From Hyphomicrobiales bacterium (lineage in GTDB: Bacteria; Pseudomonadota; Alphaproteobacteria; Rhizobiales; Xanthobacteraceae), in the NCBI GenBank assembly GCA_021732215.1, contig JAKFVL010000018.1, positions 1-64,000 on the forward strand: a stretch of DNA of 64,000 nucleotides, written 5' to 3'. Of this stretch, positions 42,502-48,619 are shown piece by piece. The translations under genes were made by a program, and so were the position numbers. The first letter of the stretch is position 1; each line of letters begins with the position of its first letter. Below the pieces are notes generated by a model. The model saw nothing but the letters and a program-made list of their open reading frames with translations. It was not told the DNA's origin and ran no database searches.

Positions 42502-44427
42502 TTAGCTATTTTCCGCCTCCACATAGCGCGGAAACACCGGCGCAGGCGGCGGCAGCTTGCTGCCAGGCGCGATCCGTTTCGCGCCACCGACAAACGCAAA
42601 CGTGCGCTCGCTATCCGGCACGCCGAGAATGTCGAGCATCTTGCCGCACGATGCCGGCATGATCGGCCAGGCGAGAATGGCGATCTGACGCACCACTTCC
42701 GCGGTCACGTAAAGCACCGTCGCCTGCCGCTGCGGATCGGTCTTGGCGAGCGCCCACGGCGCCTCGCCCGCGAAATAGCGGTTGGCCTCGGCCACGACCG
42801 CCCAGATCGCATTGACAGCGTGATGGATCTGTTGCGTCGCCATCGCAGTCCGCGCCAGCGCCAGCATGCCGTCGGCCTGCGTCAGGATCGCCATGTCGTT
42901 TTCGGAGAATGCACCCGGCTGCGGCAGCACGCCGTCATATTGCTTGGCGATCATCGACAGCGAGCGCTGCCCGAGATTGCCGAAATCATTGGCGAGGTCC
43001 GCATTGGTGCGGGCGACGATTGCTTCATGATTGTAGTTGCCGTCCTGCCCGAACGGCACCTCGCGCAGGAAGAAGAAGCGCAGTGCATCGACGCCATACT
43101 GATCGGCCAGATTGAACGGATCGACCACGTTGCCGACCGACTTCGACATCTTCTCGCCGCGGTTGAACAGGAAGCCATGCGCGAACACGCGCTTCGGCAC
43201 TGGCACGCCCGCTGCCATCAGGAACGCCGGCCAGTACACCGCATGAAACCGGATGATATCCTTGCCGATGATGTGCACATCCGCCGGCCAGTAACGCCAG
43301 TTTTTGTCGCCGCTGTCGGGATAACCGACGCCGGTGATATAGTTGGTCAGCGCATCGACCCAGACATACATGACGTGCTCGGGGTCGTTTGGAACCTTGA
43401 CGCCCCAATCGAACGTGGTTCGCGAGACCGAAAGATCCTTCAGCCCGCTTTTGACGAAACTCGTGATCTCGTTCTTGCGCGAGTCCGGCCCGATGAAGTC
43501 TGGATGCGTTTCGTAGAGCTTGAGCAGCTTGTCCTGATAGGCGGAGAGCTTGAAGAAATAACTCTTCTCCTCCACCCATTCGACCGGCGTACCTTGCGGC
43601 CCGCGGCGCACCTGATCGTCGCCGAGCGTCGTTTCATCCTCGGCGTAATAGGCCTCGTCACGCACGGAGTACCAGCCGGCGTAGCTGTCGAGATAGATAT
43701 CGCCGTTTGCCTTCATGCCGTCCCAGATCGCCTGACTGGCGCGGTGATGCGCGGGCTCCGAGGTGCGGATAAAACGGTCGAACGAAATGTTCAGCCGCTC
43801 GTCCATCTCCTTGAAGCGTGCGGCATTGCGGGTTGCCAGATCGAACGGCGTCATGTTCTCGCGCTGCGCGGTCTGGATCATCTTCTGGCCGTGCTCGTCG
43901 GTGCCGGTCAGAAAGAACACGTCCTTGCCATCGAGCCGCTGAAAGCGCGCCAGCGCATCGGTTGCGATTGCCTCGTAGGCGTGGCCGATATGCGGCGCGC
44001 CGTTCGGATACGAGATCGCGGTGGTGATGTAAAAGGTCGAGCGTGAAGCCGGGACCGCTGCCGACGGTTTCAGAGCTGGTGCTGCCTTGGGCTTTGACAC
44101 GGCCGGTTTTGGCTTTGTTGCCGCCGGAGCCTTCGTCTTTTCGACGACAGGCGCAGCGGCGACCGCCTTCTTTGCAGCCTTCTTTGCAGCCTTCTTTGCG
44201 GGAGCGTTCTTGGTGGAGCCCTGCTTCTTGGCGCTCGATGTCTTTCCGCTTGCCGCCTTCGATTTTTTGGCTTTGGATTTTTTGCCCGCCTTTTTCGCAG
44301 CCTTCGCGGCTTTCTTCCTGGAGGCGGCGCGCGTCTTCGACGCCGTCGGCTTGCCGCGCCTGGCTTTTGCAGGACGTGCGGCGGCCTTGACCTTTGTGCG
44401 TTTGCTTTTTGATTTTCTGGCCGCCAT
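42502..44427 (-). CDS. metG: Methionine--tRNA ligase with Lys/Ala-rich N-terminal tail
   Basis: This is a 641-residue protein. Residues about 131-641 are a class Ia synthetase charging tRNA-Met: HIGH as [14 protein letters not shown] as [10 protein letters not shown], zinc-less type. Residues 1-130 are an unusual Lys/Ala/Pro-rich extension with [11 protein letters not shown] runs, like histone H1 or AlgP tails. The start ATG has a good AAGGA site seven bases ahead. No in-frame ATG occurs between it and the catalytic core; one GTG near codon 110 is the only other candidate, with no ribosome site. See findings. Confidence 0.93.
44167..44199. repeat. 12-bp tandem repeat inside metG tail
   Basis: The unit CTTCTTTGCAGC is repeated about 2.75 times and encodes KKAA on the minus strand. 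Repeat-unit expansion could change the tail length between strains. Confidence 0.75.
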
Positions 44428-44524: not shown

Positions 44525-45556
44525 TTACCGCGTCGCCTCCGCGAGCATTCCGAAAACCGAGAACACCAGCGGCTTTCGCTCAAGGTTGTAGTCTGCGGTA
44601 TCCCGTGCAACGCGCACGATCTTTTCCCATACCTCGGCAAGCCGTGCAAGGCGCGGCAGGCTGGCGTCGGGGCGGTGCAATCGCTCGTTCAGCCAGCGCT
44701 CGACGGTGTCCACGAAAGCCGACAGCGCCACGCGGTCGCTCAGGCCGAGCGCATCTCCGAGCGCATGCAGCGCCCGCTGGTCGAGCTGCGGCAACTGCTC
44801 CAGCAGCGCCGTGGTTTGCTGCTTGAGACCGAGCGTCTCGCCGCCGACGAGATCGAGCGCCTGACCGACACTGCCGTCGGATACATTCGCCGCCTCGATC
44901 AGTTTCGCATCGGCCTCGGACAATTGGCTCGCCAGCGCCGCCGCACGGATCACATCGGCGGTTTCCAACGGCCGCAGCATCAGCTTGCGGCAGCGCGAGC
45001 GGATGGTCGGCAGCACGCGGGCAGGCGCATGGCTGAGCAGCAGGAACAGCGAGCGCGCCGGCGGCTCCTCGATGATCTTGAGCAGCGCGTTAGCGGCGTT
45101 CGCGTTCAACTCGTCCACGGTATCGACCACGCAGACCCGCCATCCATCGACGGCCGCAGTGTTGCCGAAAAACGAGATCGTCTCGCGCGATTCATCGACC
45201 GTAATGACGGTGCGCAGCACGCCCTTGTCGTTGGCGGTTCGCTCCAGCGTCAGCAAGCCGCCATGCGCGCCGGACGCCACTTGCCGTGCGACGGAATGGT
45301 TGACGTCCACAGCGAGCGATGTCGCTTCGCTCAGGCCTTTTGCAGAAGGGATTGGGTTCGCGAGCACGAACCGCGCCATCCGGTACGCCAGCGTCGCCTT
45401 GCCGATGCCCCGTGCGCCGCCGATCAGCCAGGCGTGAGCAATCCGCCCACTGCGATAGGCATCCAGCAAGGTGCGCTCCACATCGCCATGGCCAAACAGC
45501 ATTGTGGTTTCGCGCGGCCTGGCGATCTCGCGTTCGTCGCCAGTGCGTTTGCTCAT
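44525..45556 (-). CDS. holB: DNA polymerase III delta-prime subunit
   Basis: This is a 343-residue clamp-loader subunit. The N terminus has the AAA+ Walker A region GARGIGKATLAYRMARF, then ALLKIIEEPPARSLFLLLSH, and the sensor-like IRSRCRKLML. The zinc-finger cysteines of E. coli delta-prime are not visible, which is normal for alphaproteobacteria. Its ATG overlaps the tmk stop by four bases. Alongside tmk it is a widely conserved pair. Confidence 0.92.
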   Translation of the reverse strand: MSKRTGDEREIARPRETTMLFGHGDVERTLLDAYRSGRIAHAWLIGGARGIGKATLAYRMARFVLANPIPSAKGLSEATSLAVDVNHSVARQVASGAHGGLLTLERTANDKGVLRTVITVDESRETISFFGNTAAVDGWRVCVVDTVDELNANAANALLKIIEEPPARSLFLLLSHAPARVLPTIRSRCRKLMLRPLETADVIRAAALASQLSEADAKLIEAANVSDGSVGQALDLVGGETLGLKQQTTALLEQLPQLDQRALHALGDALGLSDRVALSAFVDTVERWLNERLHRPDASLPRLARLAEVWEKIVRVARDTADYNLERKPLVFSVFGMLAEATR

Positions 45557-46242
45557 GCGGAGATCGCTTCCGCTGCTGGCGCCTGTGTCAACAGGCGATC
45601 GCGCAGCGCCGTCCAGACCCGGCCGGCGACGATCGCGGGTTCACCTTCCGCATCGATCAAGACGCAGCGATCGGGTTCGCGTTCGGCAATCTGCCGGAAA
45701 GCATCTCGCAGCTTCTGGTGAAAGCCTGCCGCTTCGTCCTCAAACCGGTCAGGTGGGCCCTTGCCGCGCCGTTCGGCCGCGCGGCGCATGCCGGTCTCGA
45801 TGGGCAGATCAAGAATAATGGTGAGGTCCGGCTTGAGATTGCCGATGGTCACGCGCTCCAGCGCGTCAAGAAATTTTGGATCGACCTCGCCGGCATAGCC
45901 CTGATAGGCGCGCGTCGAATCCGCAAAGCGGTCGCACAGCACCCACATCCCCCGTTCCAGCGCGGGTTCGATCACCAGCTTGACGTGATCGGCGCGCGCT
46001 GCGGCAAACAGCAACGACTCGGTCGCCGATCCCAGCAGCTTGCCCATGCCGGACAGCACCAGATGCCGCATGATCTCCGCGCCCGGCGATCCGCCAGGCT
46101 CCCGCGTAACGACGGTGCGCAATCCCGTCGCGTCGAGGCGTTCGGCCAGCAGCTTGATCTGCGTGGATTTGCCCGCACCTTCACCGCCTTCAAAGGTGAT
46201 GAAGCGGCCACGCGCGGACGTCGCGAGAGATGCGGCCATCAT
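45553..46242 (-). CDS. tmk: dTMP kinase
   Basis: This 229-residue kinase phosphorylates dTMP to dTDP. The P loop is FEGGEGAGKSTQI; REPGGSPGAE, CDRFADSTRAYQG and a lid region with RRGKGPPDRFE follow. The start overlaps the stop of the PBP5-like gene (TGATG), and the stop overlaps holB (ATGA), so all three form one coupled operon. Two adjacent ATGs exist at the start. Confidence 0.95.
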   Translation of the reverse strand: MMAASLATSARGRFITFEGGEGAGKSTQIKLLAERLDATGLRTVVTREPGGSPGAEIMRHLVLSGMGKLLGSATESLLFAAARADHVKLVIEPALERGMWVLCDRFADSTRAYQGYAGEVDPKFLDALERVTIGNLKPDLTIILDLPIETGMRRAAERRGKGPPDRFEDEAAGFHQKLRDAFRQIAEREPDRCVLIDAEGEPAIVAGRVWTALRDRLLTQAPAAEAISA

Positions 46243-47495
46243 CAGAGTTTCTCGCTATTGCCGCGAAACAGGCCGATGAACAATTCGCTGACGCCGTCGA
46301 ATGCGCGCCGTGTCGTCGAGCCGACGGCGATGCCTTGCGATGTCTGCAACGGCGCCTCGACTGCGATGTTCGCTCCGCGCCAGACTTTCAGCACGCCGAC
46401 ACGCCTGCCCGGCTCGATCGGCGCCTGGACCGGCCCGTTATAGACGATCTGGGCGCGCAGCTTGTCGGAGCCATTCCGTTGCACCATCAGCTTGACTGGA
46501 TCGGGGCTGGCCAGCGTGACCGAGCGGCTTTCGCCGCCGAACACGCGCGCATAGCCGACAAGCTGATTGGCCGCGAACAGCGTGCGTGTCTCGAAGTTGC
46601 GGAAGCCCCATTCCAGCAGCTTCCTGGCTTCGGTGACGCGGTCATCCGGATCGTCGACGCCATTGACCACCACGATCAGCCGCTGGCCGTTTTGCACAGC
46701 GGACCCCACCATGCCGTAACCGCCCTCCTTGGTGGCGCCGACACTCATGCCATCGGCGGACGTCATCACTGTCGGCAGCGGATTGCGATTCTGCTGCTTG
46801 ATCTTGCTCCAGGTGAATTCGCGCTCGTTGAAGATGCGATATTGCTCCGGATAGGTCAGTACGATGTGGCGGGCGAGCCTGGCGATCTCGCGGACCGACA
46901 TCTTGTTGTTCGGATCGGGCAGACCGGTTGCATTGGCGAAGGTCGATCGCGTCAGGCCAAGCTCGCGCGCGCGCTTGGTCATGCGTTCGGCAAACGCCTG
47001 TTCGCTGCCGGCCATGCCCTCGGCAAGAATCATGCAGGCGTCGTTGCCGTTCGACACGATCGCGCCGCGCAGCAGGTCGTCGACGATGATCCGGCTGTTC
47101 AGCGCGGCAAACATGGTCGGTCCACCGGAGGGCGCGCCACCCTTGCGCCAGGCATTCTGGCTGACCTTGAAGTCGTCGGAAAATTTAAGGGTGCCAACGA
47201 GGAGCGCGTTGAACACGACTTCCAGCGTCATCAGCTTCTGCATGCTCGATGGCGCAGTGAGCTGGTCGGCGTTCTTCTCGAACAGAATGCTGCCGCTCGT
47301 GGCCTCGATCAGGATCGCGGTGGGCGCATCGGTCTCGTAGCCGCCCTCTTCCTTCTTCGGCGCGCCCTGCACGCTGTTGTTGGCAGCGTGAACCGCGCCG
47401 ATCGAGACAGCCACAGTCAGCAGCAGCGCCGCGACGGCGGCGCGCCGGGTCAGACCTGATCGCTGGAGCTTATGGCTCAGGTTACGGCAAAACAT
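46242..47495 (-). CDS. D-alanyl-D-alanine carboxypeptidase family (PBP5-like), divergent active site
   Basis: This 417-residue serine-type peptidase-fold protein trims peptidoglycan stem peptides in typical relatives. A signal peptide is clear (LTRRAAVAALLLTVAVSIGA). SxxK is intact at Ser84-Lys87 (SSMQKL). The SxN motif is NGN at 149-151 (SNGNDAC), and the KTG box reads SVG at 251-253 (SADGMSVGAT). A C-terminal PBP5-type beta domain follows. Start chosen at the ATG with GAGGAACA upstream. The two altered boxes raise doubt about carboxypeptidase activity. Confidence 0.88.
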   Translation of the reverse strand: MFCRNLSHKLQRSGLTRRAAVAALLLTVAVSIGAVHAANNSVQGAPKKEEGGYETDAPTAILIEATSGSILFEKNADQLTAPSSMQKLMTLEVVFNALLVGTLKFSDDFKVSQNAWRKGGAPSGGPTMFAALNSRIIVDDLLRGAIVSNGNDACMILAEGMAGSEQAFAERMTKRARELGLTRSTFANATGLPDPNNKMSVREIARLARHIVLTYPEQYRIFNEREFTWSKIKQQNRNPLPTVMTSADGMSVGATKEGGYGMVGSAVQNGQRLIVVVNGVDDPDDRVTEARKLLEWGFRNFETRTLFAANQLVGYARVFGGESRSVTLASPDPVKLMVQRNGSDKLRAQIVYNGPVQAPIEPGRRVGVLKVWRGANIAVEAPLQTSQGIAVGSTTRRAFDGVSELFIGLFRGNSEKL

Positions 47496-47653
47496 ACTGT
47501 TCCTCGAGACCTGCTTTCTATCAGCCGCACGGTGTCCGAACAACGCCGCTGCTGCTGAGCATTCCGGTCGGCCGACATTGCGACGTCAGTTTGACCGACC
47601 TATTCTGCTGCCGGACCGTAATCAGAAAACTCAAAAAACAGGGCGGAAAAACG

Positions 47654-48619
47654 ATGGCGGCATCCCGGACCATCAAGGCCAACGGAATCGATATTTTTGC
47701 CACCGAGCAGGGTCAGGGGCCGCTCGTCATCCTGTGCCACGGCTGGCCGGAATTGTCTTACTCGTGGCGGCATCAGATGGGGCCGCTGGCGGATGCTGGT
47801 TTTCATGTGGTCGCGCCGGACATGCGCGGCTTTGGCAAAACCTCCGCGCCACTGGATATCGCGGCTTATTCGATCTTCGATACGGTCGGCGATATGGTCG
47901 CGCTCGTGACGGCGCTCGGCGAAAGCAAAGCGATCATCATCGGTCACGATTGGGGCGCGCCGGTCGCGTGGCATGCGGCGCTGTTTCGCCCCGACATGTT
48001 CATGGCGGTTGCGGGCCTCAGCGTCCCGCCGCCGTTTCGCGCAAAGGGGCGTCCGCTCGAAAAACTGAAACAGGACGGTATCGAGAACTTCTACTGGCAG
48101 TATTTCCAGACGCCCGGCGTCGCCGAAGCGGAATTCGAGCGCGATGTGGATCATGCGATGCGCGCCATGTTTGCCGATGGTTTTGGCGACGGAGCGAATT
48201 CGCTGTTCGTGGATCCGGGACGCGGTTTTCTCGGCAACCGGCCACCAAATCCGAAGCTGCCGGCATGGATTACCGAGGCCGACCTCGCGCACTTCGTCGC
48301 GAACTACAAGGCGTCTGGATTTCGCGGCGGCTTCAACTGGTATCGCAATCTCGATCGCAACTGGGATCTCACAGCGCCCTGGCATGGCGCGCAGGTGCGT
48401 CAGCCCTCGCTGTTCATTGCCGGCTCGAAGGATTCCGTCATCACCGGCTTGATCGGCGCCAAGCGCGTCGCCGAACTCGACAAGGTGCTTCCCGACCTGC
48501 GCGGCAAGATCATCATCGAAGGCGCCGGGCATTGGGTGCAGCAGGAAAGCGCAGACGAAGTCAACGCGGCGCTGCTCGCATTCCTCAAAGACGTGCGCGG
48601 ATCATTTCCGGGATCGTGA
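47654..48619 (+). CDS. Alpha/beta hydrolase, epoxide-hydrolase-like
   Basis: This 321-residue alpha/beta hydrolase has the epoxide hydrolase pattern: oxyanion segment CHGWPELSYSWRHQM, nucleophile Asp99 in GHDWGAPVAW, and the catalytic His near 293 in GAGHWVQQE. The cap region contains the paired tyrosine positions (FYWQYF, NWYRNL). GHDWG with Asp, not Ser, favours an epoxide hydrolase or haloalkane dehalogenase over an esterase. An alternative start 63 bases upstream exists; the ATG chosen follows GGGCGG. It is divergent from the PBP5-like gene and convergent with rlpA. Confidence 0.88.
   Translation: MAASRTIKANGIDIFATEQGQGPLVILCHGWPELSYSWRHQMGPLADAGFHVVAPDMRGFGKTSAPLDIAAYSIFDTVGDMVALVTALGESKAIIIGHDWGAPVAWHAALFRPDMFMAVAGLSVPPPFRAKGRPLEKLKQDGIENFYWQYFQTPGVAEAEFERDVDHAMRAMFADGFGDGANSLFVDPGRGFLGNRPPNPKLPAWITEADLAHFVANYKASGFRGGFNWYRNLDRNWDLTAPWHGAQVRQPSLFIAGSKDSVITGLIGAKRVAELDKVLPDLRGKIIIEGAGHWVQQESADEVNAALLAFLKDVRGSFPGS

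Follow-up and report, generated by a model that had tools for sequence, protein, structure and literature searches.

Penicillin-binding protein 5 (PBP5, DacA) is a textbook enzyme, and its carboxypeptidase activity is assumed to be its function. A gene of this type in a Hyphomicrobiales bacterium raises the question whether a PBP5 can be maintained by selection when residues of its active site have been replaced, and for what it would then be kept. The window analysed here is a stretch of 64,000 nucleotides (positions 1 to 64,000, forward strand, of contig JAKFVL010000018.1, assembly GCA_021732215.1, a draft genome of 32 contigs). An earlier note, made from the sequence of this window, had described a PBP5-like protein with an intact SxxK motif and degenerate SxN and KTG boxes, and had left the choice between changed specificity, a non-catalytic scaffold and a distinct clade. 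The features needed here are as follows (window coordinates):

42502-44427, minus strand: metG-like gene, presumably for methionyl-tRNA synthetase; conserved neighbour by synteny
44525-45556, minus strand: holB-like gene, which we take to encode the delta' subunit of DNA polymerase III; conserved neighbour by synteny
45553-46242, minus strand: tmk (thymidylate kinase), downstream neighbour, by domain profile and synteny
46242-47495, minus strand: PBP5/DacA orthologue P0001 with degenerate SxN and KTG motifs, open frame of 417 amino acids
46737-46745, minus strand: codons of Ser251-Val252-Gly253 at the KTG position, read directly and placed by alignments
47049-47051, minus strand: codon of Asn149 (NGN) at the SxN serine position, by alignment to relatives and E. 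coli DacA
47235-47237, minus strand: codon of Lys87, the retained SxxK lysine, by alignment with E. coli DacA
47244-47246, minus strand: codon of Ser84, the retained SxxK nucleophile, to which E. coli S44 maps
47591-48619, plus strand: alpha/beta hydrolase-like gene between rlpA and dac, named by eye, with conservation alone scored
48625-49557, minus strand: rlpA-type gene with a DPBB domain, upstream of dac and conserved together with it, by domain profile and synteny

The description of degenerate SxN and KTG motifs in the window protein is correct. The three motifs read S84-M-Q-K87, N149-G-N151 and S251-V-G253, and the motif stretches were gapless against relatives, E. coli DacA and the PBP5 of P. 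aeruginosa (4k91), the best match by sequence among solved structures (E 3e-66). Residues identical to those of E. coli K-12 DacA were found at the positions of S44, K47, G111, N112, R198, G215 and R248 (R198 and R248 being Arg237 and Arg286 of the window protein), and replacements at those of S110 (N149), K213 (S251), T214 (V252) and H216 (A254). No KTG was found elsewhere in the 417 residues, nor did the alignment place a proper one in another part of the sequence. A sister species of the genus, known from a separate assembly (JAKFUP010000026.1), has NGN and SLG in an open frame with 90% protein identity to the window protein. Among the best 80 of 230 relatives this species was the only other one with altered motifs; the remaining 79, from Afipia, Bradyrhizobium, Tardiphaga, Rhodopseudomonas and MAGs and with identities of 64-73%, all possess SGN and KTG. 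Since the change is common to two species in separate assemblies, neither chance nor an assembly error explains it.

The protein shares the domain architecture of E. coli PBP5 (DacA) and PBP6 (DacC) of family S11, and differs from both in three replaced residues, the serine of SxN and the lysine and threonine of KTG. Pfam profiles gave a Peptidase_S11 domain (PF00768) at residues 54-279 with 198 bits against a curated cut-off of 27.6, and a PBP5_C beta domain at residues 301-387 with 64.8 bits against 21.2; the N-terminus is signal-peptide-like by eye. In a check for a C-terminal amphipathic helix of the kind found in membrane-anchored PBP5 proteins, residues 395-412 had a hydrophobic moment of 0.60, the second highest among all 18-mers of the protein. 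Scores against the NCBIfam equivalogs for DacA, DacC and DacD were under the cut-offs (192-220 bits versus 610-765), and an intact Afipia orthologue was likewise below them. AlphaFold models built on narrow alignments were weak, with a mean pLDDT of 61 (window protein) and 72 (intact Afipia orthologue), and neither was used for active-site geometry. The window model alone was searched with Foldseek, where PBP5 and PBP6 came out on top with a TM of about 0.6 and an rmsd of 7-8, values which, at this low confidence, indicate the fold class only.

The window gene has been inherited vertically and is the DacA/PBP5 orthologue within a cluster of the order rlpA-dac-tmk-holB-metG. The order rlpA-dac-tmk-holB-metG-tatD is common across relatives; among the scored genes dac adjoins tmk in 60 of 60 loci of the family (the window included) and in 79 of 80 other loci. 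In E. coli K-12, dacA also lies beside rlpA, and the RlpA proteins of the window and of E. coli match. From this conserved synteny it follows that the gene is DacA itself and not a stray paralogue.

Loss of catalytic motifs at this locus is recurrent within the order and, in our sample, nearly restricted to it. A pattern search in the family showed a replaced KTG lysine in 12 of 391 genomes, which is a lower bound: the search overlooked the g23 copies of G103, G023 and G062 and copies in genera g22, g18, g41, g7, g2, g14 and g42. By reading of the orthologues, damaged motifs were recognized in g1 (the window genus), g43, part of g26 (the genus Tardiphaga, by identity of loci), g23, g22, g18, g41, g7, g2, g14 and g42; Gly, Thr or Asn has taken the place of the nucleophile serine in g2, g14, g7, g41 and some g23 copies. 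One g12 genome has a changed SxxK lysine. All four g23 orthologues found (L218-L221) were damaged, in three different ways, and two of them are without the nucleophile serine. Two copies with an intact KTG were altered at other motifs: in G012 (L228/L270) the SxxK lysine is replaced by Met, and in G418 (L310) the SxxK lysine is replaced by Thr and the SxN asparagine by Gly.

Frequencies in the remainder of the order were taken from 39 other families, of which 60 loci had been fetched before their motifs were known. A damaged motif was present in 20 of the 60 loci and in 10 of the 39 families. The KTG lysine was absent from 18 of 60 loci and in 8 of 39 families, the family count being the fairer figure and the locus count biased upwards, because the loci were distributed unevenly (three each from f9, f19, f21, f35 and f36, two each from 11 families) and all five families with three loci contain lysine-less copies. 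From other orders of the class 62 genomes were examined, one per family: the KTG lysine was present in 62 of 62, and SxxK, SxN and K-x-G were all intact in 61, including each of the 58 genomes in which the gene is linked to tmk. Fisher's test of lysine absence gave p = 3e-4 by family (8/39 versus 0/62) and 6e-7 by locus, with kinship ignored in both. The sole damaged copy outside the order (L413 of G577, with SGG for SxN) stems from a genome of only 0.9 Mb, and its surroundings yielded no tmk.

How often the motifs were lost was estimated from a tree of the neighbouring genes tmk, holB, metG and rlpA (107 rows; L295, L304 and L315 were excluded because of short coverage). At least 13 state changes were required for Lys251, at least 13 for the SxN serine and at least 5 for the nucleophile Ser84; these parsimony counts are undirected and the tree was a quick one, with 30 of 104 inner branches weak. 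The intact motifs elsewhere in the class point to an ancestor in which they were intact. The genera g1 and g43, which both have NGN together with a replaced KTG, represent either a single loss or two separate ones, since the trees disagree: a dac tree without the motif columns weakly favoured g1 + g43 (51/96; L121, L122, L181, L196, L191, L193, L190, L142 and most Bradyrhizobium rows were left out), whereas the neighbour-gene tree placed g1 with Afipia (98/95), and the AU test, on a tree from which L196, L142 and several genera had been left out, yielded p = 0.057 for g1 + g43.

Apart from the motifs, the window protein is under purifying selection. For the pair of species of the window genus, dN/dS (Nei-Gojobori) of dac was 0.097 (dS 0.61); the neighbours of dac gave 0.128 (tmk), 0.128 (holB), 0.088 (metG) and 0.058 (rlpA). 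In damaged lineages, 10 of 13 pairs had dac values between 0.05 and 0.22 and three (g23, f42, f9) values of 0.28-0.44; 13 intact pairs ranged from 0.04 to 0.32. In the window genus, columns conserved to at least 97% in 107 relatives had changed, in one or both species, at 9 of 33 positions in and around the three motifs versus 16 of 175 elsewhere (p 0.007).

The distribution of the damage was followed over 48 columns with a conservation of 95% or more among 65 intact orthologues, which were then scored in 42 lysine-less ones. The most eroded columns were 251 (by definition), 252, 149 and 84, then 297, with 253 in sixth place; among the 47 columns besides 251, four of the six motif columns are in the top five (p 4e-4, the kept columns 87 and 151 being included in the six), and 33 of the 48 columns remain at 93% or more. 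The nucleophile serine was lost in 13 of 41 lysine-less orthologues and the SxN serine in 26 of 42, whereas Lys87 was retained in 40 of 41, Asn151 in 41 of 42 and Arg286, the equivalent of R248, in 42 of 42. Replacements at position 251 were mixed (V, Q, M, S, I, H and others), and no common new motif was seen. This pattern means that residues for substrate handling and the nucleophile have been dismantled while the fold was preserved.

The paralogues of the same family behave differently. An intact second paralogue, for which the earlier note had suggested a search, does exist: the window genome contains two further S11 genes, both with intact motifs. Among paralogue matches with a returned locus, a subset of all paralogues, the residues S-K-S-N-K-T-G were complete in 38 of 38 distinct sequences from 29 genomes. 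Damage was present in 45 of 110 orthologues versus none of these 38 paralogues (p 9e-8), the orthologue set consisting of 50 rows of family f1, deliberately enriched for damaged copies, and 60 others. A compensating extra S11 copy was also looked for where the gene is damaged and was not seen: three matches are usual in genomes with an intact and with a damaged gene alike. Three were counted in 23 of 27 genomes, with two in G236 and G243 and four in G188 and G023 (split or contig-end pieces counted apart); in a second genome set 13 of 15 had three, and G448 and G424 had four.

At the threshold used, a dac match was absent from 20 of 296 genomes of the family and from 15 of 149 genomes of the order, among them each one from f3, f15 and f39 (f6, with a partial match, was left out of the order sample). 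It was also absent from 4 of 8 g23 genomes, two of which are at least 90% complete. In G188 (L139/L125, genus g26), a single-contig genome, a frameshift divides the damaged dac into two open pieces, which might reflect an error or ongoing decay. Together, the absent matches and the frameshifted copy indicate that dac has been lost or has diverged strongly in places, and it may be decaying in those lineages.

The explanation which we consider probable is that the window gene encodes a recurrent pseudoenzyme of the DacA/PBP5 type, with a dismantled D,D-carboxypeptidase site, which is kept for a non-catalytic role in the cell wall. In the window genus the site has been dismantled through replacement of the SxN serine and of both the lysine and the threonine of KTG; the protein would still be exported and fold as a PBP5, would work without cleaving D-Ala-D-Ala, and may serve at the peptidoglycan, in the periplasm, as a subunit with a binding or regulatory task, while carboxypeptidase activity could be supplied by the two intact S11 paralogues. 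That the window protein has no such activity itself is to be expected from the family's chemistry and a laboratory mutant of E. coli (see below). Gene order and analogy point to RlpA, or to the machinery of polar growth or division, as possible partners, with the protein serving perhaps as a scaffold; neither the proposed partner nor the site is nearly as secure as the pseudoenzyme status. Of the three readings offered previously, the non-catalytic one is thus best supported, by the purifying selection, by the erosion mainly of catalytic columns and by the several sister lineages in which the nucleophile serine is gone. The notion of a distinct clade is not supported, since the gene is an ordinary syntenic orthologue and the losses are scattered over the tree.

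Changed specificity is possible for the window protein because Ser84, Lys87 and Asn151 remain, and with these some residual chemistry could persist. It would then be an active serine hydrolase, forming an acyl-enzyme through Ser84 and Lys87 with a substrate that has no free carboxylate to be bound by the KTG lysine; Arg237 and Arg286 are present too, and the near-complete retention of Lys87, Asn151 and Arg286 in lysine-less orthologues would agree with this. We regard it nevertheless as unlikely, in view of the many lysine-less orthologues that have lost the nucleophile or the SxN serine and of the mixed residues at 251, among which no common new motif has emerged. Still less likely would be an acyl trap or sensor, which binds beta-lactams or D-Ala-D-Ala without turnover. 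Its model is the laboratory mutant K213R of E. coli PBP5, in which the KTG lysine is replaced as in the window protein, and for which carboxypeptidase activity is reported to be abolished, but not penicillin binding (Malhotra & Nicholas 1992, as cited in PMC9430164). Ser84 and Lys87 are present, but the lysine has become serine here and not arginine, the SxN serine and the threonine are missing as well, the change occurs in two species and under selection, and several related lineages are without the nucleophile serine. Relaxed selection on a redundant carboxypeptidase on its way to a pseudogene is improbable for the window gene: the frameshifted copy of G188, the raised dN/dS in 3 of 13 damaged pairs, the four g23 genomes without a match and the two intact paralogues would fit such a course, but dN/dS of the window dac lies within the range of its neighbours, the frame is open in both genomes of the genus, and erosion is concentrated on catalytic columns. 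A sequencing or assembly error, as a draft of 32 contigs might harbour, is refuted by the NGN and SLG of the second species and has a negligible probability.

Proteins of the LytM type are metallopeptidases with a fold other than that of PBP5. Some of them, the degenerate LytM factors EnvC and NlpD, are homologues of peptidoglycan hydrolases without catalysis and regulate amidases, and degenerate LytM orthologues have been studied in A. tumefaciens too, according to the accessible text of PMC8416486. A binding or regulatory role of the window PBP5 in the periplasm is proposed by analogy with these factors, as both are hydrolase homologues which lose catalysis; the partners of the LytM factors are amidases. 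In the literature searched, which had most subscription journals outside it and was accessible in part, no description of inactive PBP5 orthologues in this order was found; the accessible portions of PMC7822825, PMC13059705 and PMC6107284 contained nothing on them. A survey of 966 serine proteases lists 42 putative inactive homologues in five families (PMC2605481); the sole "S11" in its accessible text is a residue number, hence family S11 is seemingly not among the five. In S. meliloti, SMc00068 is one of four annotated dac genes, as far as the available part of PMC7327166 describes them.

Members of the Hyphomicrobiales are described, in the accessible parts of PMC11527210, PMC8546619 and PMC10259793, as polar growers which are rich in L,D-crosslinks and are without MreB, RodA and PBP2. 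A strong MreB match (E below 1e-120) was obtained in 6 of 77 genomes of the order (G391, G399, G405, G411, G416 and G422). Weak matches in other genomes are presumably actin-like relatives such as DnaK or FtsA. The order as sampled is therefore not uniformly MreB-less, in contrast to the description in the available text of PMC10259793. Damage to dac was found in none of the 6 genomes with MreB versus 33 of 71 without it (p 0.034), an association that is merely suggestive, since kinship was uncorrected and the f1 rows were enriched for damage. As far as it goes, the pattern fits a release of dac from a role in the Rod system. One might tentatively go further, to a proposal which we would rather doubt than defend at present: after the loss of MreB, RodA and PBP2, the PBP5 encoded in the hyphomicrobial rlpA cluster may have been freed from catalysis and, time and again, have become a structural or regulatory component, without catalysis, of wall growth at poles or buds, so that its main function there, even where the motifs are kept, would not be the removal of D-Ala. 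If the pseudoenzyme explanation is true, many independent catalytic losses at a fixed and selected locus would constitute a natural experiment for a second, non-enzymatic function of PBP5, and many genomes of the order would carry a false annotation of the gene as a working carboxypeptidase. The locus should also offer a testable entry to wall building in MreB-less, polar-growing bacteria.

The surroundings of dac showed some variation of their own. The alpha/beta hydrolase-like gene on the opposite strand separates rlpA from dac in some genera; in others, none was detected at this place. Within genus g26, the similarity of metG to that of the window falls into two ranges, 824-878 bits for L130-L134 and L136 and 971-979 bits for L138, L140, L141 and L143; the neighbour-gene tree splits this genus, and together with the bit scores this hints at a replacement of metG.
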